Assembly (NCBI RefSeq): GCF_023898865.1
Contig: NZ_JAGSOV010000001.1
Location: 1 to 64,000 of the forward strand
Direction of reading: 5' to 3'
Length of the DNA stretch: 64,000 nucleotides
From: Pseudonocardia humida
GTDB taxonomy: Bacteria > Actinomycetota > Actinomycetes > Mycobacteriales > Pseudonocardiaceae
The first letter of the stretch is position 1. Every line of letters starts with the position of its first letter. This document shows positions 20,844 through 39,176 of this stretch, piece by piece. Made by a program: the position numbers and the translations under genes. The notes beneath the pieces were generated by a model. The model searched no databases. It saw nothing but the letters and a program-made list of their open reading frames with translations, and had not been told where the DNA came from.

Positions 20844-20849
20844 GGCCCC

Positions 20850-20855
20850 ATCCTG
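20850..20855 (-). promoter_or_regulatory. -10 box, leaderless start of araC-type gene
   Basis: CAGGAT on the minus strand six bases before the ATG at 20843; one mismatch to TANNNT. Confidence 0.4.
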
Positions 20856-20887
20856 GCCCGTGCACCGCCGCGCGGTCGACGGGCCCG

Positions 20888-20893
20888 TACGGT
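20888..20893 (+). promoter_or_regulatory. -10 box, leaderless start of MOSC gene
   Basis: TACGGT six bases before the GTG at 20900; matches TANNNT and faces the divergent araC promoter. Confidence 0.6.
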
Positions 20894-20899
20894 CGGCCC

Positions 20900-21460
20900 G
20901 TGGAACCGGGGATCGCCGTCGAGATCGTCGCGCTGCTGGTCTCGCCCGTGCACGCCTACGAGGGCCGCCCGCAGGACGGCCCGCGCCCCGACCCCGGCCC
21001 GGTGAGCCACCGGTCCGTCACCGTGCGGGCCGGGCTGGGCCTGGTGGGCGACCGCTTCTTCGGCCACGCCGCGCACCGCCGCGCCGCGGTGACGGTCCTC
21101 GACGCCGACGCCCTCGACGACGTGGCCGCCGAGATCCGCGCCCCCGGCCCGCTCGACCCGCTGCTCGCCCGCCGCAACATCGTGCTGCGCGGCTTCCCGG
21201 TCGACACCCTCGCCACCCGCCGCGCGACCGGCGGCGCGACGGTCGCGGGCGCCGTGTTCAGCCTCGACTCCGGCGACGGCCCGGTGCGCCTGCGCGCCCA
21301 CCGACCGGCCAGCCCGTGCCGCTGGATGGACGTGCGGCTCGGGCCGGGGGCGTGGAAGGCGATGCGCGGGCGCGGCGGCGTGCGCTGCGAGCCGCTCGAC
21401 GACGGCACCCTGCGCCTCGGGCGGGCCGTGCTGCGGGTGGCGCCGCCCGTCCGGGTCTAG
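20900..21460 (+). CDS. MOSC-domain protein
   Basis: A 186-residue protein with MOSC (molybdenum cofactor sulfurase C-terminal) features: GLGLVGDRFFGHAAHRRAAVTVLDADAL, RRNIVLRGFPVDTL, and the conserved Cys in ASPCRWMDVRLGPGAWKAM, which in the family is the sulfur-carrying/metal-binding Cys. Stand-alone MOSC proteins (YiiM-like) act in molybdenum-cofactor-dependent detoxification or sulfur transfer; the exact role here is unknown. GTG start with a leaderless-type promoter. Divergent from the AraC regulator. Confidence 0.85.
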   Translation: MEPGIAVEIVALLVSPVHAYEGRPQDGPRPDPGPVSHRSVTVRAGLGLVGDRFFGHAAHRRAAVTVLDADALDDVAAEIRAPGPLDPLLARRNIVLRGFPVDTLATRRATGGATVAGAVFSLDSGDGPVRLRAHRPASPCRWMDVRLGPGAWKAMRGRGGVRCEPLDDGTLRLGRAVLRVAPPVRV

Positions 21461-21463
21461 CGC

Positions 21464-21480
21464 TCCCGCAGAGCGCGGGA
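21464..21480. terminator. Short hairpin between convergent MOSC gene and polA
   Basis: TCCCGC, five-base loop, GCGGGA in the 28-base gap between two convergent stop codons. No T-run, as usual for actinobacterial terminators. Short stem, so support is moderate. Confidence 0.45.
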
Positions 21481-21488
21481 CCGGACGC

Positions 21489-24317
21489 TCAGTGGGCCGC
21501 GTCGTCCCAGCTGCGCCCGTACCCGACCGACACCTCCAGCGCCACGCTCAGCTCCGCGGCGCCCGCCATCTCCCGGCGCACCAGCGCCTCGACCGCCTCG
21601 CGCTCGCCGTCGGCCACCTCGAGCACCAGCTCGTCGTGCACCTGCAGCAGCATCCGGCTGCGCAGGCCCTCGGCGACCAGCGCGCGGTGCACGTTGAGCA
21701 TCGCGACCTTGATGATGTCGGCCGCGCTGCCCTGGATGGGCGCGTTGAGCGCCATCCGCTCGGCCATCTCGCGGCGCTGGCGGTTGTCGCTGGTCAGGTC
21801 GGGGAGGTAGCGGCGCCTGCCCATGATGGTGGCGGTGTAGCCGTCCTTGCGGGCGACGTCGACCACGCTGCGCAGGTAGTCGCGCACGCCGCCGAAGCCC
21901 TCGAAGTAGTCCTCCATCAGCGCGCGGGCCTCGTCGGTGGAGATCCGCAGCTGGTTGGACAGGCCGAAGGCGGACAGCCCGTAGGCCAGCCCGTAGTTCA
22001 TCGCCTTGATCTTGGCCCGCTGCTCCTGGCTGACCTCGGTGGCCGCCACCCCGAACACCCGGGCGGCGGTCTCGGCGTGGAAGTCGTGCTGGGAGCGGAA
22101 CGCCTCGATGAGGGCCTCGTCGCCGGACAGGTCGGCCATGATCCGCATCTCGATCTGGCTGTAGTCGGCGGTCATCAGCTCCGCGTAGCCCGCGCCGACC
22201 ACGAACGTCTCGCGGATGCGCCGGCCCGCGGCCGTGCGGATCGGCACGTTCTGCAGGTTGGGCTCGGTCGAGCTGAGCCGCCCGGTGGCGGCGATCGTCT
22301 GGCTGTAGGTGGTGTGGATGCGCCCGTCGTCGGCGATCGACTTCAGCAGGCCCTCGACGGTGACCTTGAGCCGGGTGGCGTCGCGGTGGACCAGCAGGTG
22401 CGAGAGGAACTCGTGACCGGTCTGCTCGAAGAGCGTCTGCAGCGCGTCGGCGTCGGTGGTGTAGCCCGTCTTCGTGCGCTTGGTCTTCGGCATCTGCAGC
22501 TCGTCGAACAGCACGACCTGCAGCTGCTTCGGCGACCCGAGGTTGATCTCCTTGCCGATCACCCGGTAGGCGTCCTGGGCGGCCTGCTTGACCTGCGCGG
22601 CGAACTCCGACTCCAGCGCCGCGAGCGCCTCGTGGTCGACCGCGATGCCCGCGGCCTCCAGGTCGGCCAGCACGTACTCCAGCGGCAGCTCGAGTCCGGC
22701 CAGCAGCTCGCGGCCGCCCTTCTCGGCCAGCTCGGCGTCGAGCACCTCGGCCAGCTCGGCCACCGCCGACGCGGCGACCATGCCCGCCCGGGCGCGGGCC
22801 GCGTCGGCCTCGGCCTCGCCGCTGGGCCCCTCCTCGGTGAGGTCGCCGCCGATCAGCGAGAGCTGGCCGCTCTCGGGCCCCTCGTCGACGCGCAGCTCGC
22901 GGCGCAGGTGGCGCAGCGCGAGGTCGGCCAGGTCGAAGCTGCGCTGCCCCGGCCGGGACAGGTAGGCGGCCAGTGCGGTGTCGCTGGTGAGCCCGGCCAG
23001 CGTCCAGCCGCGCCCGCGCAGCGCGTGCAGGCCCGCCTTGGCGTCGTGGGCGGCCTTGGGGAACCGCGCGTCGGCCAGCCACTCGCCCAGCGCCGCCTCG
23101 TCCTCCGGGGTGAGCACGGCCAGGTCGAGGTACGCCGCCTGGGGCACGCCCGCGGTGGCGCCCGCCGCGCGGGCCTCCAGCGAGGGCTCGCCCGCGGCGA
23201 TCGCCAGGCCGGCCAGGTCGCCCCCGGCGGCCCCGCCGGTGACGCCGTCGAAGGCCAGGCCCACCCGGCGCCCGTCGCGGGCGTTGTCGTCGAGCCAGGC
23301 CCGGACCTCGCCCGCGCCCAGCGCGCCGCCCTGGACCTCGATGCCGCCCTCGGCCTCCGGCTCGGCGCTCTGCAGCGTCGCGAACAGCCGCTCGCGCAGC
23401 ACGCGGAACTCCAGCTCGTCGAACAGCCGGTGCACCGCCTCGCGGTCCCACGGGCGCACGGCCAGGTCGGCGGGGTGCGCGTCGAGCGGGACGTCGCGCA
23501 CGAGCTCGGTGAGCTGGCGGTTGAGCAGGACGTTGGCCAGGTTGGCGCGCAGCGCGTCGCCCGCCTTGCCCTTGACCTCGTCGACCCGGTCGGTGAGGTC
23601 GCCGAGGGAGCCGAACTCGCGCACCCACTTGGCCGCGGTCTTCTCCCCCACGCCGGGGATGCTGGGCAGGTTGTCGCTGGGGTCGCCGCGCAGGGCCGCG
23701 AAGTCGGGGTACTGGGCGGGGGTGAGGCCGTAGCGGGCCATCACCTCCGCCGGGTCGATGCGGCCGAGGTCGGACACGCCGCGCTTCGGGTACAGCACCG
23801 TGACGTTGTCGCTGACCAGCTGGAACGCGTCGCGGTCCCCGGTGGTGATGAGGACCTGGTAGCCGTCGGCCTCGGCCTGGGTGGTGAGGGTGGCGATGAG
23901 GTCGTCGGCCTCGTAGTTCTCGACCGAGAACTCCGGGATGGCCAGCGCGCGCAGCACCTCCTTGATCAGGTCGACCTGGCCGCGGAAGTCGTCCGGGGTG
24001 GTGGTGCGGTTGGCCTTGTACTCGGCGAAGCGCTCGGAGCGGAAGGTCTTGCGCGAGACGTCGAAGCACACCGCGAGGTGGGTGGGCTGCTCGTCGCGCA
24101 GCAGGTTGATCAGCATCGAGGTGAAGCCGTAGACCGCGTTGGTGGTCTGCCCCGTCCCGGTGCGGAAGTTCTCCGCGGGCAGCGCGAAGAACGCCCGGTA
24201 GGCCAGCGAGTGCCCGTCGAGCAGCAGCAGGCGGTGCCCCGTCGACGGGGCGGCTGCGGCGGGCGCGGCGGCCTTCTGGCCGGCTGCTGGCTTGCGGGTC
24301 CGGGTGGCGGGGCTCAC
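21489..24317 (-). CDS. polA: DNA polymerase I
   Basis: A 942-residue protein used in Okazaki fragment and excision repair. The N-terminal 5' nuclease domain has LLLLDGHSLAYRAFFALP and a helix-hairpin-helix in DNLPSIPGVGEKTAAKW. The central domain keeps the fold position of the proofreading exonuclease, but the DxE pair expected early in it is replaced (VGLAFDGVTGG), so proofreading is probably lost. The polymerase domain has TADYSQIEMRIMA (motif A), RAKIKAMNYGLAYGLSAFGL (motif B) and LLQVHDELVLEV (motif C). GTG 24317 is taken as start because the fold follows a short Ala/Lys linker and TAGACT lies seven bases upstream. Confidence 0.96.
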   Translation of the reverse strand: MSPATRTRKPAAGQKAAAPAAAAPSTGHRLLLLDGHSLAYRAFFALPAENFRTGTGQTTNAVYGFTSMLINLLRDEQPTHLAVCFDVSRKTFRSERFAEYKANRTTTPDDFRGQVDLIKEVLRALAIPEFSVENYEADDLIATLTTQAEADGYQVLITTGDRDAFQLVSDNVTVLYPKRGVSDLGRIDPAEVMARYGLTPAQYPDFAALRGDPSDNLPSIPGVGEKTAAKWVREFGSLGDLTDRVDEVKGKAGDALRANLANVLLNRQLTELVRDVPLDAHPADLAVRPWDREAVHRLFDELEFRVLRERLFATLQSAEPEAEGGIEVQGGALGAGEVRAWLDDNARDGRRVGLAFDGVTGGAAGGDLAGLAIAAGEPSLEARAAGATAGVPQAAYLDLAVLTPEDEAALGEWLADARFPKAAHDAKAGLHALRGRGWTLAGLTSDTALAAYLSRPGQRSFDLADLALRHLRRELRVDEGPESGQLSLIGGDLTEEGPSGEAEADAARARAGMVAASAVAELAEVLDAELAEKGGRELLAGLELPLEYVLADLEAAGIAVDHEALAALESEFAAQVKQAAQDAYRVIGKEINLGSPKQLQVVLFDELQMPKTKRTKTGYTTDADALQTLFEQTGHEFLSHLLVHRDATRLKVTVEGLLKSIADDGRIHTTYSQTIAATGRLSSTEPNLQNVPIRTAAGRRIRETFVVGAGYAELMTADYSQIEMRIMADLSGDEALIEAFRSQHDFHAETAARVFGVAATEVSQEQRAKIKAMNYGLAYGLSAFGLSNQLRISTDEARALMEDYFEGFGGVRDYLRSVVDVARKDGYTATIMGRRRYLPDLTSDNRQRREMAERMALNAPIQGSAADIIKVAMLNVHRALVAEGLRSRMLLQVHDELVLEVADGEREAVEALVRREMAGAAELSVALEVSVGYGRSWDDAAH

Positions 24318-24324
24318 CCGGGCG

Positions 24325-24330
24325 AGTCTA
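24325..24330 (-). promoter_or_regulatory. -10 box, leaderless start of polA
   Basis: TAGACT on the minus strand seven bases before the GTG at 24317. Confidence 0.5.
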
Positions 24331-24447
24331 GGACCGGGCCCCGACAGTCCCGCCCCGGTCCCGTGCGGGGCCGTCCGGTGCGTGCGGAACCGGTGGAGGT
24401 GGCCCGGACGTTGTGCGAGGAGGGGCGGATCCGTGCGCTGATCGGAC

Positions 24448-24479
24448 TTGACAGACAAGCCGGGCGGTGCCGATATGCT
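24448..24479 (+). promoter_or_regulatory. Promoter of the ter island
   Basis: A perfect TTGACA (24448-24453) is followed by GATATGCT; candidate -10 hexamers are GATATG (spacing 18) or TATGCT (spacing 20). It lies about 60 bases before the terD GTG, inside the 223-base gap divergent from polA. A consensus -35 is rare in this window and suggests strong housekeeping transcription. Confidence 0.6.
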
Positions 24480-24540
24480 CGCCCCGGATCAGCTCGAACC
24501 GGGGGGAACGAGCCCCCCACCTACAGATGCGGAGCAGTAC

Positions 24541-25116
24541 GTGAGCGTCAGCCTGACCAAGGGTGGGAACGTCAGCCTCACGAAGGAGGCCCCGGGTCTC
24601 ACGAACGTCATCGTGGGGCTCGGCTGGGACGTGCGTTCGACCACCGGTACGGACTTCGACCTGGACGCGTCCGCGATCGCCGTCGGCGCCGACGGCAAGG
24701 TCCTGTCCGACAAGCACTTCATCTTCTTCAACAACCTGACCAGCCCCGACGGCACCATCGAGCACACCGGCGACAACCTCACCGGTGAGGGCGAGGGCGA
24801 CGACGAGCAGGTCAAGGTCAACCTGGCCGGGCTGCCCCCGGAGGTCGACAAGGTCGTCTTCCCGGTCAGCATCTACGACGCCGAGGGCCGCTCGCAGAGC
24901 TTCGGGCAGGTGCGCAACGCGTTCATCCGGGTGGTCAACGAGGCCGGCGGCAGCGAGCTCGCCCGCTACGACCTGTCCGAGGACGCCTCCACCGAGACCG
25001 CCATGGTCTTCGGCGAGCTCTACCGCAACGGGGCCGACTGGAAGTTCCGGGCCGTCGGCCAGGGCTACGCCTCGGGCCTCGCGGGCATCGCCCGCGACTT
25101 CGGCGTCAACGTCTGA
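24541..25116 (+). CDS. terD: TerD-family calcium-binding stress protein
   Basis: A 191-residue TerD-domain protein. It begins [28 protein letters not shown]; the calcium-binding acidic motif [12 protein letters not shown] and [14 protein letters not shown] are clear, as is [16 protein letters not shown]. TerD proteins bind Ca2+, are cytoplasmic and belong to tellurite/phage/stress-resistance (ter) operons. GTG 24541 is taken as start, with GGAG six bases upstream, because the family begins exactly there; the frame is open upstream. First gene of the plus-strand ter operon. Confidence 0.95.
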
Positions 25117-25126
25117 GGGCGGAGCG

Positions 25127-25828
25127 GTGGCCATCGACTACAGCAAGCGGCCCTCCTCGGGTGGCGGGTCGGGCGGCGGCCCGGCGGCCGGGGACGGGGG
25201 TGGGGTGTCCCTGTCGAAGGTCACCCTGACCAAGGCCTCGCCGTCGGTCTCGCTGACCAAGCGCGGCGCCGCGGGCGGTCAGCTGCGGGTCAACCTGCAG
25301 TGGAGCACCGGTGCGGCGCCGCAGAAGAAGGGCCTGTTCGGCCGGCTGACCGGCGGCGGCGGGGGCATCGACCTCGACCTGGCGTGCCTGTGGGAGTTCA
25401 GCGACGGCAGCAAGGGCGTCGTCCAGGCGCTCGGCAACGCCTTCCAGGCGCCCTACAGCGGCGCGCCGATCATCCGGCTGGACGGCGACGACCGGTCCGG
25501 GTCGGCCGCGGCGGGCGAGAACATGTTCATCGACCTGTCGCGGGTCGACGAGATCCGCCGGATCCTCGTGTTCGCCTTCATCTACGAGGGCGTCCCGAAC
25601 TGGGCCAGCGCCGACGGCGTGGTCACGCTCTACCCGGCGCAGGGCCCGGAGATCGAGGTCCGCCTCGACGAGGCCGACACCGGCGCGCCGACGTGCGTCA
25701 TCGCGCTGCTGGAGAACAAGGGCGGCGAGCTCACCGTGCGCCGCGAGGTCCGCTACATCCGAGGTGGCCAAGCCGACGTTGACCGCGCCTACGGCTGGGG
25801 CATGAACTGGACGCCCGGCCGAAAGTGA
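25127..25828 (+). CDS. TerD/TerA-family protein with Gly-rich N-terminal linker
   Basis: A 233-residue TerD-superfamily protein. About 35 Gly/Ser/Lys-rich residues lead into VSLSKVTLTKASPSVSLTKRG and LRVNLQWSTGAAPQKKGLFGRL, then GIDLDLACLWEFSDGSKGVVQALGN, and RLDGDDRSGSAAAGENMFIDL, the equivalent of the TerD GDN-acid loop. This resembles the TerA/TerF-like branch with a modified metal loop. A GAGGG ribosome site overlaps the terD stop, so the two are co-translated. It may form a complex with TerD; that is inference. Confidence 0.88.
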   Translation: MAIDYSKRPSSGGGSGGGPAAGDGGGVSLSKVTLTKASPSVSLTKRGAAGGQLRVNLQWSTGAAPQKKGLFGRLTGGGGGIDLDLACLWEFSDGSKGVVQALGNAFQAPYSGAPIIRLDGDDRSGSAAAGENMFIDLSRVDEIRRILVFAFIYEGVPNWASADGVVTLYPAQGPEIEVRLDEADTGAPTCVIALLENKGGELTVRREVRYIRGGQADVDRAYGWGMNWTPGRK

Positions 25829-25887
25829 CCGGCTGACGAACTCGGACGCGCCGGGGCGGCGGTGTCCTCCCGGGAGGGGCCTCGATC

Positions 25888-27051
25888 GTGCGGCACTTCA
25901 GCTACCTCGGCGCGTCCGACCTGGCCTCGCTGTTCGAGGTGCCACCCGAGCGGCTCGACCGCTCCGGCGGTACGGATCTGCTCTCGGTGGCCCTCGGGGC
26001 CACGCTCTACATGCCGGCCGACCGGCCGGAGCTGGCCAAGGACGTGGCCAAGCAGGCCGCCGCCGGGGTCACCTCGGTGACGGTGTGCCTGGAGGACTCC
26101 ATCCCCGACGACGTGGTCCCCGCGGCGGTGGAGAACCTGGTCTCGGCGCTGCGCGCCCTGCACGACGACCCGCCCGCCGAGCTGCCGCTGCTGTTCGTGC
26201 GCGTGCGCGAGCCGAGCCAGATCGGGTACGTCGTCGAGCGCCTGGGGGCCGCCGTCGCGGCGCTGACGGGCTTCGTGCTGCCCAAGTTCACCGCGGCCAG
26301 CGGCACCGAGTACCTGCACGCCCTCGACGTGGCCGACCGGGTCAGCGGGGCCGAGCTGCTGGCCATGCCGGTGATCGAGTCCGGGGCGGTGCTCTACGCC
26401 GAGACCCGCGTCGACGAGCTCACCCGGCTGCGCGCCCTGCTGCACCGCGACCGCAGGCGCATCCTGGCGGTCCGGCTGGGCGCCACCGACCTGTGCGCGC
26501 TGTTCGGGCTGCGCCGCTCCCCCGACCTGTCGATCTACGACGTCAAGGTGATCAGCAGCCTGATCGCCGACGTCGTCAACGTGCTCGGCCGGGCCGACGG
26601 CTCGGGCTTCACGGTCACCGGGCCGGTGTGGGAGTACTACGGCGGCGCCGAACGCATCCTCAAGCCGCAGCTGCGCCAGAGCCCCTTCGACGCCCACGGC
26701 GAGCGCGAGCTGCGCGGGCAGCTGGTCTCGCGGGCCATCGACGGCCTCATCCGCGAGGTCCAGCTCGACGCGGCCAACGGCCTGCAGGGCAAGACCTGCA
26801 TCCACCCCAGCCACGTGGCCGTGGTCAACGCCCTGTCGGTGGTCTCGGCCGAGGACCACCGCGACGCCGCCGACGTGCTGAGCATCTCCGAGGCGGGCGG
26901 GGTGCGCGCCTCCGGGCTGCGCAACAAGATGAACGAGGCCCGCCCGCACACCGCGTGGGCCCGCCGCACGATGCTGCGCGCGAGGGTGTTCGGGGTCGCA
27001 GCCCAAGACGTCTCGTTCGTGGACCTGTTGGCCGCTAGCCTGCCCCGGTGA
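25888..27051 (+). CDS. HpcH/HpaI aldolase / citrate-lyase-like enzyme of the Ter biosynthetic module
   Basis: A 387-residue TIM-barrel protein related to citrate lyase beta subunit. Visible are ALGATLYMPADRPELAKDV, SVTVCLEDSIPDD (acidic metal region), FVRVREPSQIGYV, FVLPKFTAASGTEY and LLAMPVIESGAVLYAET, plus GKTCIHPSHVAVVNAL near the end, the typical CitE tail. Start GTG 25888 with GGAGGG nine bases upstream. Its stop overlaps the next start (GTGA). In ter islands, a lyase of this family is encoded with PRTases and a HAD enzyme and is thought to help build a nucleoside-like metabolite; the reaction is not known. Confidence 0.88.
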   Translation: MRHFSYLGASDLASLFEVPPERLDRSGGTDLLSVALGATLYMPADRPELAKDVAKQAAAGVTSVTVCLEDSIPDDVVPAAVENLVSALRALHDDPPAELPLLFVRVREPSQIGYVVERLGAAVAALTGFVLPKFTAASGTEYLHALDVADRVSGAELLAMPVIESGAVLYAETRVDELTRLRALLHRDRRRILAVRLGATDLCALFGLRRSPDLSIYDVKVISSLIADVVNVLGRADGSGFTVTGPVWEYYGGAERILKPQLRQSPFDAHGERELRGQLVSRAIDGLIREVQLDAANGLQGKTCIHPSHVAVVNALSVVSAEDHRDAADVLSISEAGGVRASGLRNKMNEARPHTAWARRTMLRARVFGVAAQDVSFVDLLAASLPR

Positions 27052-28433
27052 TCGCTGTCGCCGGTACCGGGTCGATCGTCGACCGGCTCGGGGTCCGCCT
27101 CGAGCCGGTGGCCGGCGCCGACGCCACCGCCCTGCTCGGCGTGGCCCTGCGCCGCAACCCGCTGCGCGCGCACCTGCTGGTCTCGCGGGTGCTGGGCAAG
27201 CACATCCCGTCCGACCCGCGGGCGGTGCGCGCCGCCGGGCTGCTGCTGGGGCTGCTCGTCGCGGACGTGCTGGCCGGGCGCCCGCCGCGGGCGCTGCCGA
27301 CCGAACGGCTGCACGCGGCGGCCGCGGGCGATCGGGCCGCCGCCGCGGCCCTGCACGCCTCGCTGGCCCCGGAGGGACCGACCGACGCGCTGGTGCTCGG
27401 GTTCGCCGAGACGGCGACCGCGCTCGGGCACTGCGTCGCCGAGGCGCTCGTCTCCGACTACCTGCACTCCACCCGGCGCGAGGTGCCCGGGGTGACGGCG
27501 GCGGGCGGCTTCACCGAGGAGCACTCGCACGCCACCTCGCACACCCTGCTGCCGACCGACCCCGACCTCATGCGCGGCGGGCGACCGCTCGTGCTCGTCG
27601 ACGACGAGCTGAGCACCGGGCGCACGGCGCTCAACACGATCACCGCGCTGCACCGCGCGATGCCCCGCGAGCGCTACGTGGTGGCCGCGCTGGTCGACGC
27701 CCGCCCACCGGACTCCGACCTGGTCGAGGCGGTGGCCGCGCTCGGCGCGAGGCTCGACGTCGTCTCGCTGGCCACGGCCCGCGTGGAGCTGCCCGCCGAC
27801 GTGATCGCGCGGGCGGCCGCGCTGCGCAGCGAGATCGACCGCCGCGCCGACCTGCCCACCCGCGGCGGGGCGTCGGTCGGGTCCGACGCCGGCGCGCTCC
27901 CGGCGCCGCTGGAGGTGCGGGCCCTCGGGTGGCCCGCCGGGCTCGCCGTGGGCGGGCGGCACGGGTTCGCCGCGGCCGACCACGCCGCCTTCGCGACCGC
28001 GCTCGCCGAGGTGGCGGTGCCCGGCCTGGAGGCCGACCCCGCCGAGCGCACGCTCGTGCTGGGCACCGAGGAGCTGATGCAGCTGCCGCTGCGGCTGGCC
28101 CAGGTGCTGGCCGATGCGGCGGGCCCGGAGGCGGCGGGCGTCTGGTTCTCCACGAGCACCCGCTCCCCCGCCGTCGTCGTCGACGAGCCCGACTACGCGC
28201 TGCGCACCGGCCTGGTGTTCGCCGCCCACGACGGCCCCGCCGACGGGCCGGGACGCCGCTACGCCTACAACCTCGCCACCGGCGACCCCGACGCGGCACG
28301 GGGGGGCGGGCCGGCGTGGGACCGCGTCGTCGTGGTCGTCGACCCGCCCGGCGACACCCCCGCGCTGCGCTCCGGCCTGCTGCGGGCGCTGGCCCCGCAC
28401 ACCCGCCGGACCACCCTGCTGGTCACCCCGTGA
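27048..28433 (+). CDS. PRTase with C-terminal TRSP domain (Ter biosynthetic module)
   Basis: A 461-residue two-domain protein. The N-terminal half is a type I phosphoribosyltransferase: GFAETATALGHCVAEAL, then EEHSHATSHTLLP and the PRPP loop LVLVDDELSTGRTALNTI (about 181-198). The C-terminal half has VLGTEELMQLPLRLAQVL and the STSTRSPAV segment with the TRSP tetrapeptide at 371-374 that names the domain. Known ter-linked enzymes of this architecture are predicted to transfer phosphoribose to an unknown base or ring. GTG start overlaps the lyase stop; GTGA overlap with the next PRTase too. Confidence 0.9.
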   Translation: MIAVAGTGSIVDRLGVRLEPVAGADATALLGVALRRNPLRAHLLVSRVLGKHIPSDPRAVRAAGLLLGLLVADVLAGRPPRALPTERLHAAAAGDRAAAAALHASLAPEGPTDALVLGFAETATALGHCVAEALVSDYLHSTRREVPGVTAAGGFTEEHSHATSHTLLPTDPDLMRGGRPLVLVDDELSTGRTALNTITALHRAMPRERYVVAALVDARPPDSDLVEAVAALGARLDVVSLATARVELPADVIARAAALRSEIDRRADLPTRGGASVGSDAGALPAPLEVRALGWPAGLAVGGRHGFAAADHAAFATALAEVAVPGLEADPAERTLVLGTEELMQLPLRLAQVLADAAGPEAAGVWFSTSTRSPAVVVDEPDYALRTGLVFAAHDGPADGPGRRYAYNLATGDPDAARGGGPAWDRVVVVVDPPGDTPALRSGLLRALAPHTRRTTLLVTP

Positions 28434-29596
28434 CCGCGCCGCGCGGATCGTCCCCGCCCGCGCCGCTGCGCGGACCGGCGTTCGGCAGCTACCGGCCGGA
28501 GGAGGTCGGCTGGCTGCTGACCGACCTGTCCGGGGTGGCCCTGGAGGCGCCGGTCGAGGAGCGCGAGGAGGCCGTGCAGAGCGGCGGCGCGCACTACGCC
28601 GAGTCGCTGCCCCAGGAGTACCAGCCCGACCCGGAGTACCTGGAGCTCTACCGGACGGCGCTGGCCGCGTCGGCGGCGCGCATGGCCCGCGCGGTCGGCA
28701 CGGTCGCCGAGCTGGTGCTGCGCGAGCGCGGCCGCGATGTCGTGCTGGTGTCCCTGGCCAGGGCCGGTACCCCGGTGGGCGTCCTGCTGCGCCGCTGGGC
28801 CGCCGCCCGGCACGGCCTCGACCTGCCCCACTACGCGGTCTCGATCGTGCGGGGCCGGGGCATCGACGGGCAGGCGCTGCGGTACCTGGCCGAGCACCAC
28901 GACCCGGCGAAGGTGGTGTTCGTCGACGGCTGGACCGGCAAGGGCGCGATCACCGGGGAGCTCTCGGCCGCCCTGGCCGCGCACGACGGCGCGTTCGACC
29001 CCGACCTGGCCGTGCTGGCCGACCCCGGCCGCTGCGTGCGCACCTTCGGTACCCGCCAGGACTGGCTGATCCCCTCGGCCTGCCTGAACTCGACGGTCTC
29101 CGGCCTGGTGTCGCGCACCGTGCTCAACCCCGCGATCCTGGGGCCCGACCAGTACCACGGCGCCAAGTTCTACGCCGAGCTGGCCGGCGCGGACGTCTCG
29201 AACGAGTTCCTGGACACCGTGGCCGGCCACTTCGCCGACGTCACCGCGGCCGACACCGCCGAGCCGCCCGACCGCGAGCCCGACCACGCCGGCATGGCCG
29301 CCGCGCTGCGCCTGGTCGAGGCCTACGACCTGGGCGAGGCCAACCTGGTCAAGCCCGGCGTCGGGGAGACCACCCGGGTGCTGCTGCGCCGGGTGCCCTG
29401 GCGGGTGCTGGTGGCGCCGGACGCACCGGCCGCCGACCTCGCCCACGTGCGGCTGCTTGCGCAGCGCCGCGGCGTCCCCGTCGAGGAGGTCGAGGGGCTG
29501 CCCTACAGCTGCGTGGGCCTCATCCACCCCCGCTACACCCGCGGCGCCACCGGCGCCGACGGCCGCGCCGCCGCGGTGGGCGGGTCGCCCCGGTGA
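28430..29596 (+). CDS. PRTase with C-terminal PELOTA-like RNA-binding domain (Ter biosynthetic module)
   Basis: A 388-residue protein. The N-terminal domain is a PRTase relative: VLVSLARAGTPVGVLLRRW, HYAVSIVRGRGID and the PRPP-loop equivalent VVFVDGWTGKGAITGEL (about 160-176). Roughly residues 300-375 (GEANLVKPGVGETTRVLLRR ... LVAPDAPAADLAHVRLLAQRRGVPVEEV ... SCVGLIHPR) resemble the L7Ae/PELOTA RNA-binding fold reported fused to this PRTase in ter islands. GTG start at 28430 is in the stop of the PRTase-TRSP gene, and its own stop overlaps the HAD start. Confidence 0.88.
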   Translation: MTAPRGSSPPAPLRGPAFGSYRPEEVGWLLTDLSGVALEAPVEEREEAVQSGGAHYAESLPQEYQPDPEYLELYRTALAASAARMARAVGTVAELVLRERGRDVVLVSLARAGTPVGVLLRRWAAARHGLDLPHYAVSIVRGRGIDGQALRYLAEHHDPAKVVFVDGWTGKGAITGELSAALAAHDGAFDPDLAVLADPGRCVRTFGTRQDWLIPSACLNSTVSGLVSRTVLNPAILGPDQYHGAKFYAELAGADVSNEFLDTVAGHFADVTAADTAEPPDREPDHAGMAAALRLVEAYDLGEANLVKPGVGETTRVLLRRVPWRVLVAPDAPAADLAHVRLLAQRRGVPVEEVEGLPYSCVGLIHPRYTRGATGADGRAAAVGGSPR

Positions 29597-30516
29597 GCGA
29601 GCTCGCGAACGGGTCGGCGGCGCGCGGCGGTCCCGTCGTCTTCCTCGACCTGGACCGCACCACGATCTACTCCGCGGCCGCGCTCGCCATCGACGTGCCC
29701 GACCACGCCGCTCCGCGCCTGCTGTGCGTCGAGGTCTACCGCGGGGCGCCGCTGTCGTTCATGACCGAGGCCGCGGTGGCCGCGTTCGAGCGGCTGCTGG
29801 GCGCCGCGACCGTGGTCCCGACCACCACCCGCACGGTCGAGCAGCTGGCCCGGGTGCACCTGCCCGGTCCACCGGCCCGCTACGCGGTGGCCGGCAACGG
29901 CGGCGACCTGCTCGTCGACGGCGTGCCCGATCCCGCCTGGGCCGCCGCGGTGCGCGAGCGGCTGGTCGGTTGCGCACCGCTGGACGAGGTGGCCGCGCAC
30001 GTCGGGTCGGTGTCCGGGGAGTTCGTGCTCAACCGGCGCACGGCGTCGGGGTTGTTCGTCTACGCCGTCGTCGACCGGGCCGCGCTGCCCGCGCAGTGGG
30101 TGCCGGAGCTGGCGGCCTGGTGCGCCCCGCGCGGGTGGGCGGTCTCGCTGCAGGGGCGCAAGGTCTACGCGGTGCCCACACCGCTGACCAAGTCGGCCGC
30201 GGCCGCCGAGGTGCTCGCCCGCACCGGCGGGGGCCCGCTGCTGGCCGCGGGCGACTCGCTGCTCGACGCCGACCTCCTGCGCGCGGCCGATATCGCCGTG
30301 CGCCCCGCGCACGGCGAGCTGCACGACGCCGGCTTCGGCCTGCCGCACCTGCACGTGACCGCGGCCCGCGGCGCCGCCGCCGGCACCGAGCTGCTCGGTT
30401 GGCTCGCCGACCGCGCAGCCGCCGGCACGACCGCCAGCACGACCGACGGCGCGGTCGACGGCGCGGTCGACGGCATGGCCCCCGACGCCGCCACCTCGGG
30501 TTCTGGCAGGCTGTGA
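29593..30516 (+). CDS. HAD-superfamily phosphatase (Ter biosynthetic module)
   Basis: A 307-residue HAD enzyme. Motif I is VVFLDLDRTTI with the nucleophile and acid/base Asp at 19 and 21; VVPTTTRTVEQ resembles motif II, the Lys of PLTKSAAAAEVL fits motif III, and AAGDSLLDADLL (about 216-227) is motif IV. It probably removes a phosphate from the metabolite made by the two PRTases; this is by association. GTG start overlaps the PRTase-PELOTA stop. The last ~35 residues are Thr/Asp/Gly-rich, with a short tandem repeat. Confidence 0.9.
   Translation: MSELANGSAARGGPVVFLDLDRTTIYSAAALAIDVPDHAAPRLLCVEVYRGAPLSFMTEAAVAAFERLLGAATVVPTTTRTVEQLARVHLPGPPARYAVAGNGGDLLVDGVPDPAWAAAVRERLVGCAPLDEVAAHVGSVSGEFVLNRRTASGLFVYAVVDRAALPAQWVPELAAWCAPRGWAVSLQGRKVYAVPTPLTKSAAAAEVLARTGGGPLLAAGDSLLDADLLRAADIAVRPAHGELHDAGFGLPHLHVTAARGAAAGTELLGWLADRAAAGTTASTTDGAVDGAVDGMAPDAATSGSGRL
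30444..30467 (+). repeat. 12-bp tandem repeat in the HAD gene tail
   Basis: Two perfect copies of GACGGCGCGGTC, with a third imperfect copy after them, encoding DGAV repeats at the disordered C-terminus. Confidence 0.7.
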
Positions 30517-30541
30517 ACCACCCGCGCGAGGAAGGACCTCA

Positions 30542-30997
30542 ATGGCTCTGTGGGACACGCTCAGGTCTCGCATCACCGACATGTCGAGCAACGTCAAGAC
30601 GCAGGTCGGCAAGTTCAAGACCAAGGAGTTCGCCAACGCCAGCATGGCGATGTGCGCGCTGATCGCGGCCGCCGACGGCAAGATCGACCCCGATGAGCGC
30701 GCCAAGACCGCCGGCTTCATCGCCAGCAACGACGCGCTGTCGGTGTTCAACGTCAGCGAGCTCCAGGAGAAGTTCAACTGGTACGCCGGCAAGCTGGAGT
30801 CGGACTACGCGTTCGGCAAGGTCGAGGCGATCGCCACCATCGGCAAGCTCAAGTCCAAGCCGGACGCCGCCCGTGCGGTGATCCAGGTCGGGATCATCAT
30901 CGGCGGCGCGGACGGCAACTTCGACGCCGACGAGAAGCAGGCCGTGCGCGAGGCCTGCAACGCCGTCGGCATCTCGCCGTCGGAGTTCGACCTGTGA
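30542..30997 (+). CDS. terB: TerB-family tellurite-resistance protein
   Basis: A 151-residue all-helical TerB domain: FANASMAMCALIAAADGKIDPDER and VIQVGIIIGGADGNFDADEKQAVREAC are two related metal-binding helical motifs with acidic DGKIDPDE / DGNFDADE loops. TerB is a cytoplasmic, membrane-associating partner of TerC and TerD. ATG start with an excellent GAGGAAGG ribosome site six bases upstream. It is 25 bases after the HAD gene and ends the plus-strand run. Confidence 0.95.
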   Translation: MALWDTLRSRITDMSSNVKTQVGKFKTKEFANASMAMCALIAAADGKIDPDERAKTAGFIASNDALSVFNVSELQEKFNWYAGKLESDYAFGKVEAIATIGKLKSKPDAARAVIQVGIIIGGADGNFDADEKQAVREACNAVGISPSEFDL

Positions 30998-31035
30998 GGC
31001 ACCGGCCCGGGCCGTGAGACCCGGGCCGGGCACGT

Positions 31036-31073
31036 CGAGGGCCCCGGCAGTGCGTGCACTGCCGGGGCCCTCG
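31036..31073. terminator. Bidirectional terminator between terB and terD2
   Basis: An 18-bp perfect inverted repeat (CGAGGGCCCCGGCAGTGC and its complement) separated by GT, in the gap between the convergent terB and terD2. No T-run on either side, as in actinobacterial I-shaped terminators. Its symmetry can end both transcripts. Confidence 0.85.
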
Positions 31074-31089
31074 TGCGTGTGCCGGGTCC

Positions 31090-31668
31090 CTACAGGTGCG
31101 GTCCGACCGCGGGCACCAGGTCCTGCACGGTCCGACCGCTTGCGGTGGCCCCGATCGCGGTCATCGTCCAGCCCGCGCCGCCCCGACTCACCTTCGCCAT
31201 GATCTGGGCGTTGTGCTGCCCGGATCCGCTGAGCTCGTAGCGGGCCAGCTCGTCGTTGCTGGTCTCGTCGATCAGCCGGCAGAACGCGTTCTCGATCTGC
31301 GAGAAGTCCTGGCCGGTGAACGAGTTCACGGTGAACACGATCTGGGTGACCGCGGGCGGCACCCGGGTCAGGTCGACGATGATCGACTCGTCGTCGCCCT
31401 CGCCGGCTCCGGTCAGGTTGTCGCCGGTGTGCTGCACCGACCCGTCCTTGCTGCGCAGCTGGCGGAACCAGACGGCGTCGACGAGGCTCCCGCCGCCGTC
31501 GAACAGCAGCGCCGAGGCGTCGAGGTCGATCGTCTGGGACTTCATGCCGCCGAACAGGCCGCGCTTCTTGACCGCGTCCCAGCCCAGGCCCATCCGCACG
31601 ACGGTCAGCCCGCCGCCGCCGCGCTTGGTCAACGAGACCTGCTGGCCCTTGCTCAGGTTCACGCTCAT
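31090..31668 (-). CDS. TerD-family stress protein (second copy, TerZ-like)
   Basis: A 192-residue TerD domain: SVNLSKGQQVSLTKRGGGGLTVVRMGLGW, then TIDLDASALLFDGGGSLVDAVWF and [22 protein letters not shown], and FSQIENAFCRLIDETSNDELARYELSG. The acidic calcium loops are kept. It has the KKRGLFGG insertion after GWDAV typical of the TerZ/TerE-like branch. ATG start with GAGGGGG upstream. It is read towards terB and follows the TerC-like gene by 40 bases on the same strand. Confidence 0.93.
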   Translation of the reverse strand: MSVNLSKGQQVSLTKRGGGGLTVVRMGLGWDAVKKRGLFGGMKSQTIDLDASALLFDGGGSLVDAVWFRQLRSKDGSVQHTGDNLTGAGEGDDESIIVDLTRVPPAVTQIVFTVNSFTGQDFSQIENAFCRLIDETSNDELARYELSGSGQHNAQIMAKVSRGGAGWTMTAIGATASGRTVQDLVPAVGPHL

Positions 31669-31708
31669 CCGTACCCCCTCATCCGGCGCCCTCGTCGGGC
31701 GCCGTCGG

Positions 31709-32917
31709 TCACACGCTGTGGTGGTGCTCGGCCTTCTCGGCGGCCATCTGGTCGGCGGTCCGGTGGGTGTCGATGCCCTGGGCCGCGAGCTTGCGGTTGC
31801 GCAGGATGCTCGACAGGAAGGCCGCGCCGATGAACGCCACCCCGATCAGACCGGTGACGATCTCGTTGACGTGGAAGCCGATGCCCAACAGCAGGATCGT
31901 GGCCAGGGCGCCGATCGCCCAGTGCGCACCGTGCTCGAGGTAGACGTAGTCCTGCAGGGTGCCCTTGCGGACCAGGAAGACGGTCAGCGACCGGACGAAC
32001 ATCGCGCCGATCAGGCCCAGGCCCAGCGCGATGAGGATCGGGTCGGTGGTGATGGCGAACGCGCCGATGACGCCGTCGAAGGAGAACGCGGCGTCGAGCA
32101 CCTCGAGGTAGAGGAACAGGAAGAACCCGGCCTTGCCGCTGGCCTTGGCCAGCTCCGAGGGCCCGCCGTTGCTGTTGCCCGCGGCGCGGTCGGCGACCTT
32201 GGGCTCGGCACCGGTCACGGTGGCGGTCGCGGGGCCCTCCTGGGGGTCGGACCCGTCCTCGTCGTCGTCACCGTCCTCGACGGCGCCTTCGAACAGCTCA
32301 CCCAGGCCGTTGACGGCCAGGTAGGTGACCAGGCCGAGCGAACCGGCGACCAGCACCACGGCCGGGTCCTCGGCGAGCGTCTGGGCCAGCACGACCAGCA
32401 CGACCAGCGCGAGCACGATGGCCAGCCGGTTGAGCTGGCCGACGCGGGCCAGCGGGCGCTCCAGCCAGGTCAGCCACTTGACGTCGCGGTCCTCGAAGAT
32501 CCAGTCGAGGTACAGCATGAACAGGAACATGCCGCCGAACGCGGCGATCTGCGGGTACGCCTCGTTGAGCAGGTAGGCGTAGCTGGTCGGATCCTCCGGC
32601 GGGCGCTGCTCCAGCGCGAGGGTCAGCGCTTCGACCGGGTTCAGCCCGGCCGTCACGGCCACGATGACCAGCGGGAACACCAGCCGCATGCCGAACACGG
32701 CGATGAGGATGCCGATGGTCAGGAAGATCCTCTGCCAGAAGGCGTCCATCCGCTCCAGCACGGTGGCGTTGACCACCGCGTTGTCGAAGGACAGCGAGAT
32801 CTCCAGGATGCCCAGGATGGCGCAGAGGATGAGAGCCTCGACACCTCCGTACAGGAACGCCACGATCAGTGACACGACCGTCACGCCGTAGGAGAAGCCG
32901 AATATCCGTAGGTTCAT
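31709..32917 (-). CDS. TerC-like membrane protein (DUF475)
   Basis: A 402-residue polytopic protein of the DUF475 branch of TerC. Nine or so hydrophobic segments are evident; the two symmetrical acidic membrane motifs LEISLSFDNAVVNATVL and LEVLDAAFSFDGVIGAFAI are the TerC hallmark thought to bind metal. A charged loop at about residues 210-255 (EDGDDDEDGSDPQEG) sits between halves. TerC proteins act in metal efflux or in metalation of exported enzymes. ATG start; ribosome site weak. TerC-TerD together with TerB are expected to form a membrane complex. Confidence 0.93.
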   Translation of the reverse strand: MNLRIFGFSYGVTVVSLIVAFLYGGVEALILCAILGILEISLSFDNAVVNATVLERMDAFWQRIFLTIGILIAVFGMRLVFPLVIVAVTAGLNPVEALTLALEQRPPEDPTSYAYLLNEAYPQIAAFGGMFLFMLYLDWIFEDRDVKWLTWLERPLARVGQLNRLAIVLALVVLVVLAQTLAEDPAVVLVAGSLGLVTYLAVNGLGELFEGAVEDGDDDEDGSDPQEGPATATVTGAEPKVADRAAGNSNGGPSELAKASGKAGFFLFLYLEVLDAAFSFDGVIGAFAITTDPILIALGLGLIGAMFVRSLTVFLVRKGTLQDYVYLEHGAHWAIGALATILLLGIGFHVNEIVTGLIGVAFIGAAFLSSILRNRKLAAQGIDTHRTADQMAAEKAEHHHSV

Positions 32918-33087
32918 GAAGTCAGGTCCCGTCCCCCGCGCGCTGCGTAGATCCGCCGTTTACCCCGCCACCGTAGCGGTGAACGGATTCGACGCTTCCC
33001 TCGTGCCCCAATCCGACGTCGACCCCAAGCCGACGGTCACGCTACCGCCGAACGGCAGCACGTCATCTGCCGAACGGCTCACTACTG
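32918..33087. other. Intergenic region upstream of the TerC-like gene
   Basis: 170 bases between the J-like/FN3 gene stop and the TerC-like ATG, same strand. It should hold the terC promoter and the terminator of the Hsp70 operon. Two copies of the decamer GCCGAACGGC occur at 33047-33056 and 33069-33078, 22 bases apart. Confidence 0.5.
33047..33078. repeat. Two direct copies of GCCGAACGGC
   Basis: Both copies are self-complementary at the ends (GCCG/CGGC). A 22-base period is two helical turns, so they could be a binding site for a dimer pair near the end of the J-like gene; no regulator is known. Confidence 0.4.
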
Positions 33088-35241
33088 CTACTCGTCTGAG
33101 CGGCCCTCCGTCGAGCGAACACCGCCGACGGTGGCGCTGACCGCGTACACCGGCACCGCACCGGCCGGAGCGCCGCCGTCCTCGATGCTGGTGGCGGTGG
33201 TGCGCCCCACGACGCGCCAGCTCTGCGGGCCGGTCTGCGCCCGCACCCGGAACTCCGCGTCGCGGGGGCCGGTCCAGCTCACCTCCACCGCGCCGTCGGG
33301 CAACCGCACAGCCCGCACGCTCGCGGGCCGGGACGCCGCCGTCGGCGAGGTGCCCGCGTCGTCGGGCGGGCGTGGCGGCGCCGGAGGGGCCGCCGGCGCC
33401 GGAGAAGGCGCCGGGGTCGGAGAAGGCGCCGGGGTCGGAGAGGGCGCGGGTGGGCCGGCCTGCGCCGTCGACGAGAGCACCGGGCCGTCCGAGCGGGTCA
33501 GCGGCGAGGAGCGGCCGCCCTGCAGGGCGGCCACCGCGTAGATCGGCGCCTCCACCCCGGCGGGCGCGCCGCCGTCGTCCAGCGAGGTGCCGGTGACCCG
33601 GCCGAGCACCTGCCAGGACCCGTCCGGGCGCTGGCGGCTGACCTTGTACGTCACGCCCTCCGTCGGCGAGGGCCCCCAGAGCACGAGCACGTCGCCACGC
33701 CGGTCGCGGGCCGCGCTGACCCACGCCGGCGGGGCCACCGGCAGGTCGGCCAGCGCCGCCGCGGCCCCCGGATGGCCGGGGCAGCGCTCCAGCACCGCCA
33801 GCAACGCGGCGGCCCGGTCGGCCTCCCGGCCGGCCAGCGCCGCCGCGACCTCGCGGTCGGCGCGCTCGATCTCGGCCCGCGCGGTGGCCAGCAGCTCGCT
33901 CGGGTCGTGCACGTCCGCGGCCACCCGGGCGAGGTGCTCCAGGTGCTCCACGGCGTCGACGAACCGGCGGCCCTCGCAGGCCCCCACCGCGGCCCGCCAG
34001 CGCACCTCGGCGTCGGCCAGCACGTCGGCGACCTCGTCGGCGACGGCCCGGATCGGCGGCGCGCCACCGGCGCCCGCCAACTGCTCGGCCTCCCGCACCA
34101 GCCGCTGGGCCTCCGCGGCCCGCCCGGCGCGCAGGGCCTTGCGGGCCGCCTTGAGCCGCTCCTCCCACGGCGGTCGGCGCGGGCGCTCCGGCGGGCGCTG
34201 CGGTTCGGCCCGGGGACCCGCGGATCCCCCGCCGGGCGTGGCGGTCGCCGGATCGTCGCCGATCGGCGCGCCCAACTCGGCGGCCAGCGCGGCCAGCACC
34301 GCGGAGGCGCGCTCGCGGTCGAGACCGAGCTCGACGGCCTCGTCGAGCAGGTGCGCGTGGTCCTCGGTGACCAGCCGGTCCTCCACGAGGACCGCGGCCC
34401 GCACGCGCGGGCGCAGGTGCTCGGTGACGTCGGACGTCACCGCGTCCAGGTACGCCGCGACGGCCTCGTCGCCGGGCTCGATCAGCTCCGCGACGTGCAC
34501 CATCAGCTCGTCCACGACCGCGCGGAGCCGGTCGGGGGGCAGCTCGCGGGCCCGGGCCCGCCAGGCCGCGGCCAGGGTGCGCACCTCGGCCGCGTGCGCA
34601 TCCGGGCCCACCCCGAGCATCGCCAGCAGGGTGGGCGGCGGGGCGCCGTCGGTCAGCCGGCCCAGCTCGTCGAGCAGGGCCCGGATCTGGCGGCGGCGGT
34701 CCGGGCTGATCCGGTCCCGCGCCGGGGGCGGCGGCGCGCCGACGGGGGCGAGCAGGCGGTGGCGGCGCAGCCGCACCTCCACCTCCTGGCGCTCCAGCCC
34801 GGCCAGCTTCCCGACGTCGTAGAGCCCTTCGACCTTGTCGCGCGGCACCCCGCCGTGCCGGCCGACCAGCCGCGAGATGGCCGCGTCGAGCAGCGCGAAC
34901 CGCTCGGTCTCGCGCTGCTCGCGCTGGTGGCGCACGCGCATCGCGGCCATCCGGCGCCGGTGCGGGTCGCGCAGCTCCGCGCTGCGCTGCTCGTGCGAGG
35001 CGACCAGCAGCGCCACCAGCACCCGGTACTTGGGGTGGTCGCGCTGGCGCTGCCAGAACGCCCAGACCTCGTCGAGGCGGCTGAGCACCTGGGCGTCGTC
35101 GAGGTCGTCGGCGACGGGCAGGTCGTAGAGCTCGAAGGGGTCCGAGGCGTCCGGCCCGCCCCGCTTCTCGACCGTGGCCAGCACGCTCTTGCGGTAGCCG
35201 TTCGGGTCGAACGGCGCCAGCACCCCACCGGTGTCAGTCAC
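33088..35241 (-). CDS. J-like co-chaperone candidate with two C-terminal FN3-like repeats
   Basis: A 717-residue protein I do not match to a named family. Residues ~34-98 look like a J domain: FELYDLP, then a long helix, then DHPKY, then a helix ending ELRDPHRR. HPK stands where DnaJ has HPD. The middle has long Arg/Ala-rich helices with a Pro-rich gap. Two related repeats at about 505-587 and 643-717 each end in TSxxDGGAPAG... PxYAV... GGxRS, resembling FN3-like beta sandwiches, separated by an APSPTP tandem repeat. The start overlaps the Hsp70 stop by eight bases, which is the main functional clue. Confidence 0.8.
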   Translation of the reverse strand: MTDTGGVLAPFDPNGYRKSVLATVEKRGGPDASDPFELYDLPVADDLDDAQVLSRLDEVWAFWQRQRDHPKYRVLVALLVASHEQRSAELRDPHRRRMAAMRVRHQREQRETERFALLDAAISRLVGRHGGVPRDKVEGLYDVGKLAGLERQEVEVRLRRHRLLAPVGAPPPPARDRISPDRRRQIRALLDELGRLTDGAPPPTLLAMLGVGPDAHAAEVRTLAAAWRARARELPPDRLRAVVDELMVHVAELIEPGDEAVAAYLDAVTSDVTEHLRPRVRAAVLVEDRLVTEDHAHLLDEAVELGLDRERASAVLAALAAELGAPIGDDPATATPGGGSAGPRAEPQRPPERPRRPPWEERLKAARKALRAGRAAEAQRLVREAEQLAGAGGAPPIRAVADEVADVLADAEVRWRAAVGACEGRRFVDAVEHLEHLARVAADVHDPSELLATARAEIERADREVAAALAGREADRAAALLAVLERCPGHPGAAAALADLPVAPPAWVSAARDRRGDVLVLWGPSPTEGVTYKVSRQRPDGSWQVLGRVTGTSLDDGGAPAGVEAPIYAVAALQGGRSSPLTRSDGPVLSSTAQAGPPAPSPTPAPSPTPAPSPAPAAPPAPPRPPDDAGTSPTAASRPASVRAVRLPDGAVEVSWTGPRDAEFRVRAQTGPQSWRVVGRTTATSIEDGGAPAGAVPVYAVSATVGGVRSTEGRSDE
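33401..33454 (-). repeat. 18-bp tandem repeat in the J-like gene
   Basis: Two identical 18-base copies (33401-33418, 33419-33436) and a third degenerate one encode the repeated APSPTP linker between the two FN3-like repeats. Confidence 0.7.
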
Positions 35242-36922: not shown

Positions 36923-36928
36923 GATCGG

Positions 36929-36934
36929 AGCCTA
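36929..36934 (-). promoter_or_regulatory. -10 box, leaderless start of hsp70
   Basis: TAGGCT on the minus strand six bases before GTG 36922. The divergent GrpE-like gene has the identical hexamer in the same position. Confidence 0.6.
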
Positions 36935-38420: not shown

Positions 38421-39176
38421 TCAGGCGTCGAGCAGCGCCAGCGTCTCGTCGCTGACCTCGAAGTTCGCGTACACGTTCTGCACCTCGTCGCTGTCCTCGA
38501 GGGCCTCGATCAGCCGGAAGACCTTCTTGGCCGTCTCGGCGTCGAGCGGCACCGACATCGAGGGCAGGAACGTCGGGTCGGCCGAGTCGTAGTCGATGCC
38601 GGCGTCGACCAGTGCGGTGCGCACGGGCACCAGGTCCGTGGCCTCGGTGATCACCTCGAAGTTGTCGCCGAGGTCGTTGACCTCCTCGGCGCCGGCGTCG
38701 AGGACCGCCATCAGCACGTCGTCCTCGGTGAGCTCACCGGACTTGGGCACGATCACCACGCCCTTGCGGGTGAACAGGTAGGCCACCGAGCCCGGGTCGG
38801 CCATCGCACCGCCGTTGCGGGACATCGCCAGGCGGACCTCGGTGGCAGCCCGGTTGCGGTTGTCGGTGAGGCACTCGACGAGCACGGCCACCCCGCCCGC
38901 GGCGTAGCCCTCGTAGGTGATGGTCTGGTAGTCGGCCCCGCCCGCGTCGGCGCCCGAGCCGCGCTTGACCGCGCGGTCGATGTTGTCGTTGGGCACCGAA
39001 CTCTTCTTCGCCTTCTGGATGGCGTCGTAGAGCGTCGGGTTGCCGTCCGGGTCGCCGCCACCGGTCCGCGCGGCCACCTCGATGTTCTTGATGAGCTTCG
39101 CGAACATCTTGCCGCGGCGGGCGTCGATGACGGCCTTCTTGTGCTTGGTCGTCGCCCACTTGGAATGCCCGCTCAT
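38421..39176 (-). CDS. yebC: YebC/PmpR-family regulatory protein
   Basis: A 251-residue protein of the universal YebC/TACO1 family: [35 protein letters not shown], then [15 protein letters not shown] and [36 protein letters not shown] are all highly conserved. Family members aid translation of proline-rich or difficult sequences or regulate transcription. ATG start with AGAGGGAG upstream. Next gene is pdxT, in the same order as in mycobacteria. Confidence 0.95.

Follow-up and report, generated by a model that had tools for sequence, protein, structure and literature searches.

A chromosomal Ter island of Pseudonocardia humida with a four-enzyme cassette for a predicted nucleoside-like metabolite, held at one site between polA and yebC

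Results

Gene content of the ter island

We analysed a stretch of 64,000 nucleotides from Pseudonocardia humida (positions 1 to 64,000 of NZ_JAGSOV010000001.1, here called the window). In the 8.29 Mb genome from which it comes (G000; in our labels, L stands for a locus and G for a genome), this is contig C20. It carries an island of ter genes together with a cassette of four enzymes: a C-C bond lyase, two phosphoribosyltransferases (PRTases) and a HAD phosphatase. From polA towards yebC, the first ter genes and the cassette lie on the plus strand, and are followed by a second terD and a DUF475/TerC gene that converge on them:

24541..25116, plus strand: terD (PF02342, 282 bits); the listed open reading frame begins at TTG 24448, the likely start is GTG 24541
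25115..25828, plus strand: weak TerD-like protein, terDb (PF02342, 18.1 bits, cut-off 25.3)
25888..27051, plus strand: C-C bond lyase, TIM barrel of CitE/HpcH type (PF15617, 387.5 bits)
27048..28433, plus strand: PRTase-TRSP (PRTase_2 PF15609, 206.6 bits; TRSP PF12500, 102.6 bits)
28430..29596, plus strand: StiP-type PRTase-PELOTA with an L7Ae-like C-terminal domain (StiP PF11202, 353 bits; PELOTA_1 PF15608, 102 bits)
29593..30516, plus strand: HAD phosphatase (motifs DLDRT, T78, K200, GD..D; similarity to PDB 6d3v/6cj0)
30542..30997, plus strand: terB (TerB PF05099, 89.8 bits)
31090..31668, minus strand: second terD, convergent (PF02342, 164 bits)
31709..32917, minus strand: DUF475/TerC-type membrane protein (DUF475 PF04332, 416 bits; TerC PF03741, 66 bits; NF010613, 554.8 bits)
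21489..24317, minus strand: polA, left border (likely start 24317; named by its sequence and an earlier reading, outside the Pfam scan)
38421..39170, minus strand: yebC, right border (PF01709/PF20772)

The four enzyme genes are joined by GTGA overlaps at 27048, 28430 and 29593, and the Pfam scan finds TerD, TerB and TerC-family proteins all together in the island. An earlier account made from the letters of this DNA (the sequence-only reading) had named these genes with this order, these strands and these overlaps, all of which are confirmed by the open reading frames and Pfam. Two of its labels need softening: the 'second TerD-family gene' at 25115-25828 is present but merely TerD-like, scoring below the cut-off, and the 'HpcH/HpaI lyase' is indeed a lyase through PF15617, whereas its HpcH/HpaI match (16.9) falls short of the cut-off of 25. 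In relatives, terDb also stands downstream of terD. Judged by its sequence, the island corresponds to that module of Ter systems for which a 'nucleoside-like metabolite' has been predicted, here in its four-enzyme actinobacterial form; the description 'full module' therefore holds for this form only, as two plasmid cassettes carry five enzymes.

Folds and motifs of the cassette enzymes

Structure prediction, which the sequence-only reading had proposed, gives PRTase folds for both PRTases (pTM 0.90 for PRTase-TRSP and 0.87 for PRTase-PELOTA), and their placement in the TRSP and PELOTA families, set beforehand as its refuting test, held at the scores listed above. In PRTase-TRSP, the phosphoribosyl pyrophosphate (PRPP) loop VDDE..TG and the RSP motif are invariant in the alignment. 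The idea that TRSP is a second, worn PRTase half gained no support from a profile comparison (probability 1.6%, E 0.03), and the rows of a further comparison barely extend into this domain.

PRTase-PELOTA has the PRPP loop VDGWTG, and the residues D166, W168, T169, G170 and G172 of this PRPP-type loop are invariant among 32 homologues. Its loop-1 motif, SLxRAGxP (from strand 105-109 to helix 114-128), contains no acidic residue, while D166, the invariant aspartate, belongs to loop 3. The best VIA match of the model is the ribose-5-phosphate transferase of a capsule polymerase (Bcs3/CriT). The PELOTA tail is L7Ae-like: an L30e/L7Ae fold was found, with GETTR where the L7Ae-type contact motif (NExTK) has NETTK, and with E313 and R316 invariant.

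The lyase profile matches citrate lyase and acyl-CoA lyase chains in the PDB (best 1.1e-10). No Pfam or NCBIfam model matched the HAD protein, which the sequence-only reading had called a phosphatase; we assign it from its motifs, invariant in 14 rows, and from its match to PDB 6d3v/6cj0 (1.5e-9 alone, 1e-39 by profile). This relative of solved structure goes under the name 'trehalose phosphatase' and is almost the same protein as the HAD of a ter cassette, so that a structure of the HAD step of such cassettes likely exists already. The protein of 6cj0/6d3v has reportedly been assayed on trehalose 6-phosphate.

The cassette in relatives and in known systems

The coupling of the module, proposed from the overlapping genes, proves stronger than had been claimed. 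Among the named loci, which are the best 80 of the named StiP relatives, 76 contain both PRTase genes, and in 67 of these the two are fused into a single open frame; the remaining 4 of 80, without a PRTase-TRSP match, lie near a contig end. The PRTases are fused in all eight Streptomyces-type (g8) loci, two of three f2 loci and four of four g240 loci, and both fused proteins that were checked hold all four domains in Pfam. They are separate in the window, in 27/27 other genus loci holding both, in G402, G489 and L054, and on the Mycolicibacterium alvei and Citrobacter plasmids. In the most likely frame, this adds the constraint that both PRTases work together as a single unit. The C-C lyase was matched in 72 of the 80 named loci, and in the eight others StiP begins within 1.2 kb of the start of the stretch.

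The Ter loci of Streptomyces and Mycolicibacterium (L043-L050 and the M. alvei plasmid, L102) are alike in layout, with the four enzymes of the window in the same order and no adjoining ATP-grasp gene. Plasmid Ter modules of proteobacteria (Citrobacter pPSV, L103; Pseudomonas pNY13932-PER, L184) resemble the window in having PRTase_2-TRSP, HAD, StiP-PELOTA and the C-C lyase near TerD, TerB and TerC. The window differs from these modules in its order (lyase, PRTase, PRTase, HAD), its 4-base overlaps, its fixed chromosomal site and its lack of the ATP-grasp gene found on pPSV (PF15632, 129.6 bits). The Bcs3 system (CriT with the HAD phosphatase CrpP) is like the cassette in its PRPP-using PRTase-like fold, its lack of a vicinal acidic pair and its HAD partner, and unlike StiP in being a capsule polymerase, in its loop-1 aspartate D680, which has no StiP counterpart, and in having an SH3b domain instead of an L7Ae-like tail (PMC10299916).

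Some plasmid loci carry further genes. On the M. alvei plasmid, a 346-aa protein of no clear Pfam family lies upstream of the lyase (L102:5530-6570); its relatives (31-44% identical) were matched in a further 11 loci of Streptomyces type or from f2, and the Pseudonocardia loci gave no match. On the Citrobacter plasmid, the gene after the cassette encodes a DUF4236 protein (L103:14023-15231), and on the M. alvei plasmid a DUF4236 match below cut-off (L102:13944-15071) comes after two TerD genes.

TerD and the cassette are linked and separable

We compared the occurrence of TerD and StiP in three overlapping draws, of 62 genomes from the genus, 296 spread evenly over the phylum and 200 from the family, all including G000. 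The genus draw has StiP in 29/62 genomes and TerD in 30/62, namely the same 29 and one genome with a weak match (G051, 3.1e-9). In the phylum draw, TerD occurs in 14/296 genomes and StiP over cut-off in those same 14, with a 15th StiP match, in G271, below cut-off. The perfect coupling that these two draws show is broken in both directions by the family draw, and was rejected: StiP is found in 10/200 genomes, TerD over cut-off in 7/200 and both in four (G000, G010, G018 and G060), leaving six genomes with StiP only and three with TerD only, while the TerD matches of G481, G511 and G523 are below cut-off. In all three draws there is one StiP match per positive genome, and the cassette-bearing genomes of the genus have from 2 to 15 TerD matches. 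The genome of the window itself has eight further TerD matches on contigs C3, C7, C35, C39 and C42, several of them inside long frames.

The six StiP-only genomes (G402, G489 and four of g240, from three genera) all hold PRTase-TRSP, PRTase-PELOTA and HAD in the order of the window, with the PRTases fused in g240. Compared with the window, they have no genome-wide TerD match and no strong Ter-type C-C lyase: the lyase gave no match in the six loci, two of which (L092 and L094) end before its usual position, and nowhere in these genomes does PF15617 score above 35.0 bits, compared with 387.6 for the genome of the window. Such weak matches can be general HpcH/CitE-type proteins, and E. coli is matched as well. 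The smallest unit found consists of three genes, or two where the PRTases are fused, and is found in genomes without TerD. In the three TerD-only loci, terD and DUF475 were matched in every case and terDb in two. Pfam confirmed TelA in the two proteins scanned, one in each of two of these TerD-DUF475 loci (L185 and L187).

Because the core occurs in genomes where neither TerD nor a strong Ter-type lyase was detected, the PRTase-PRTase-HAD core and the Ter part are separable modules that are joined in this island. In most of the genomes examined, the lyase goes with TerD, that is, with the Ter branch. In the most likely frame, a further constraint is that the PRTase-HAD core serves some purpose of its own in genomes that lack TerD. 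The production of a signal and its perception are probably distinct functions, since some related genomes have three of the four enzymes and no detectable TerD gene.

A divergent cassette adjoins several TerD genes in L054: its PRTase_2 protein has no TRSP match, its PELOTA domain is below cut-off (18.6 bits), and its HAD matches other Pfam models.

The ATP-grasp step

The sequence-only reading had pointed to a missing ATP-grasp gene. There is indeed none beside the cassette, but this absence is less odd than was claimed. When ATP-grasp and StiP positions were compared by hand, no PF15632 match lay within 20 kb of StiP in any of 25 further StiP-bearing genomes (25 of the 42 other StiP-positive genomes found in the genus and phylum draws), and therefore, in the actinobacteria checked, the ATP-grasp step is either missing or independent of the cassette, and the lack of the gene is usual there. 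Eleven of these 25 have PF15632 over cut-off somewhere in the genome; G168 has no PF15632 match at E 0.01, with StiP and at least 10 TerD matches present. Both proteobacterial plasmid cassettes examined carry an ATP-grasp gene. A tblastn search with the Citrobacter ATP-grasp gave no match in 47 loci and the window, nor in the 80 named loci; as this search had no actinobacterial positive control, PF15632 is the better test.

The search elsewhere in the genome that the sequence-only reading had suggested yields one PF15632 candidate over cut-off (57.5-60.3 bits), a 408-aa protein on contig C12 (L009:1432-2655), and one weaker match. The C12 protein adjoins a HAD hydrolase of HAD_2 type (L009:21-1196), and may serve the Ter cassette in trans. 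PF15632 is not specific, since all 14 control genomes matched.

A fixed chromosomal site in Pseudonocardia

In 24 of the 28 other positive genus loci polA adjoins the island, and in the remaining four the stretch starts inside the island at a contig end. All four enzymes are present in the same order in 27 of these 28 loci, the other (L035) being cut. In the StiP-negative congeners yebC was located in 33/33, and polA and yebC are 33-2999 bp apart (between matched segments) in 27/33, the other six having no polA within the stretch examined. The ter and cassette genes of the window gave no match at 1e-6 in the 33 StiP-negative stretches, some of which are short. The whole island is thus either there or missing, as a block, at this one site, and two of the negatives, L057 and L065, are unsure. 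L057 (G034, 83% complete) shows, at a contig end, hsp70 and the gene of a 717-aa protein, and L065 (G035, 78% complete, polA in two pieces) keeps grpE between polA and yebC.

In a tree built from polA/yebC, with 52 rows (25 carrying the island and 27 lacking it, after removal of ten loci that had no usable polA), the presence of the island needs at least 3 changes, against a mean of 17.6 for shuffled states. There may have been two gains at one site, or one gain and several losses. The protein distances of the island and of polA/yebC correlate with a Spearman coefficient of 0.81 (300 pairs, 25 genomes), which is as expected for mostly vertical descent. The closest named StiP relative is that of P. 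lacus, 91% identical.

Borders and neighbouring genes

The polA and terD genes overlap as mechanical open reading frames only. GTG 24541 is the likely start of terD because the TerD domain begins at about 24544, and the true starts, 24541 for terD and 24317 for polA, likely leave a divergent gap of about 220 bp, which may carry the promoters of both genes.

The region 33088-37610, between the island and yebC, encodes first the 717-aa protein, for which Pfam gave no match, and then an Hsp70 and a GrpE-like protein; a small open reading frame, likewise unmatched in Pfam, follows before yebC. The 717-aa gene was matched in 20/28 other genus loci, and L035, L037, L041 and L042 reach yebC without it. 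In L021, L027 and L029 a TerD-like frame, 37-41% identical to terD, comes after grpE. That the island lies between polA and yebC with no integrase, as the sequence-only reading had stated, is borne out among the Pfam-identified genes: none between polA and yebC is an integrase or transposase, a negative limited by the stretches 33088-35241 and 37716-38354 and the HAD gene, which have no Pfam match, and attachment sites were not searched for.

Discussion

A 2012 analysis of Ter systems by Anantharaman is said to have predicted the product of the Ter biosynthetic genes. The nucleoside-like nature of this product is a published prediction (PMC7824862, PMC8115787), and a 2021 paper citing the 2012 analysis states that the PRTases and HAD make nucleoside or nucleotide derivatives that signal a threat, and that TerB and TerD might sense these (PMC7824862); this is the most likely frame referred to above. 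No report of the identity of the product was found in the literature listings and passages searched. PRTases of glycan pathways are described as PRPP-dependent ribose-5-phosphate transferases paired with a HAD phosphatase (PMC11127046); judging by predicted folds, the cassette has the same pair of activities.

Taken together, these data lead us to a reading of the island which we hold at about even chances, namely that it is a chromosomal Ter stress-response locus of actinobacterial type, in which the cassette builds a ribofuranosyl ('nucleoside-like') molecule sensed by TerD and TerB. The PRTases would carry out PRPP-dependent ribosyl transfer as the first step, the HAD enzyme would then remove the 5'-phosphate, and the C-C lyase would supply or trim the carbon skeleton for the Ter branch; TerD and TerB would bind the product, and the DUF475/TerC protein would respond at the membrane. 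As a whole, the interpretation given by the sequence-only reading is partly supported.

Several observations weigh against our reading. The term 'ribofuranosyl' rests on fold and motif, and for PRTase-PELOTA Foldseek ranks HGPRT (5.9e-4) and PyrR (6.6e-4) first by E-value, with Bcs3 only 26th (3.3e-3), yet with the highest query TM-scores listed (0.31-0.32). StiP also lacks the loop-1 acidic residue of CriT, so that there is no acidic pair between loops 1 and 3. In E. coli, terZ-F in trans sufficed for tellurite resistance (PMC8115787), and the cassette is therefore not needed for this phenotype. The genomes G507, G539 and G540 have TerD over cut-off without StiP, so TerD can exist without the cassette, and the link in the genus rests on as few as 3 tree changes, not on 29 independent events. 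The association of the lyase with the Ter branch has its own weak points: several StiP-only genomes pass the PF15617 cut-off of 28.4, the L092 and L094 stretches are too short to show the usual place of the lyase, and in two g111 loci, L054 and L188, the stretches examined contain TerD genes and a StiP relative but gave no lyase match, nor, in L188, a PRTase-TRSP match.

The strongest competitor, to which we give a minor though real share of probability, is a glycan or envelope ribosylation pathway that merely travels with the Ter genes, TerD not sensing its product. The capsule-polymerase transferase as best VIA match and the filing of the HAD relative as a sugar phosphatase would fit such a pathway, as would the occurrence of the core without TerD and of TerD without the core; however, no glycan gene was named among those neighbours that were annotated or scanned with Pfam (a gene-by-gene scan was limited to these loci), and TerD and StiP coincide, genome by genome, in the draws from the genus and the phylum. 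Less probable, and in our view improbable, is a mobile phage-defence island inserted between polA and yebC. Such an element would account for an island that some members of the genus carry and others lack at the same site, and Ter genes are reported on phages and plasmids (PMC7824862); against it, the Pfam-identified genes include no integrase or transposase (with the limits given above), the site is the same in two host clades, and the distances of the island rank like those of polA/yebC, as they would under mostly vertical descent.

We think it similarly doubtful that the acceptor is RNA, with the L7Ae-like tail holding a structured RNA which the PRTase/HAD pair ribosylates, and no free metabolite. 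The L7Ae profile match falls to E 0.11 without two plasmid rows, glycine and arginine stand where the L7Ae motif has its asparagine and lysine, and the PELOTA domain is weak in g240 (38.9 and 58.9 bits) and drops below cut-off in L054. A search of 20000-40000 for a gene-linked RNA gave just two Rfam matches, both far below their cut-offs. An extended form of this idea, in which the core would be an RNA-directed ribosylation machine combining CriT-like PRPP ribose-5-phosphate transfer with dephosphorylation, the Ter proteins would read the mark or its breakdown product, and the TerD-free fused cores would be a stripped-down form, seems to us just as improbable. By far the least probable is a proteolytic stress response with StiP as a cysteine protease, the function that the names of PF11202 and of NCBI records suggest: the 32 homologues share no invariant cysteine, although C202, C218 and C361 come close, the PRPP-type loop has the invariant residues named above, and the first structural matches of the model are PRTases.

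What is new about the island is its fixed site, the TerD-StiP link and its breaks, the TerD-free core, the PRTase fusion, and the relatives of PRTase-PELOTA and HAD. The question of what the cassette makes is narrowed to a smallest unit of three genes, with the lyase as a Ter-branch step in most genomes and a structure for the HAD step likely at hand. For its study, Pseudonocardia gives natural pairs of genomes with and without the island at a single chromosomal site.

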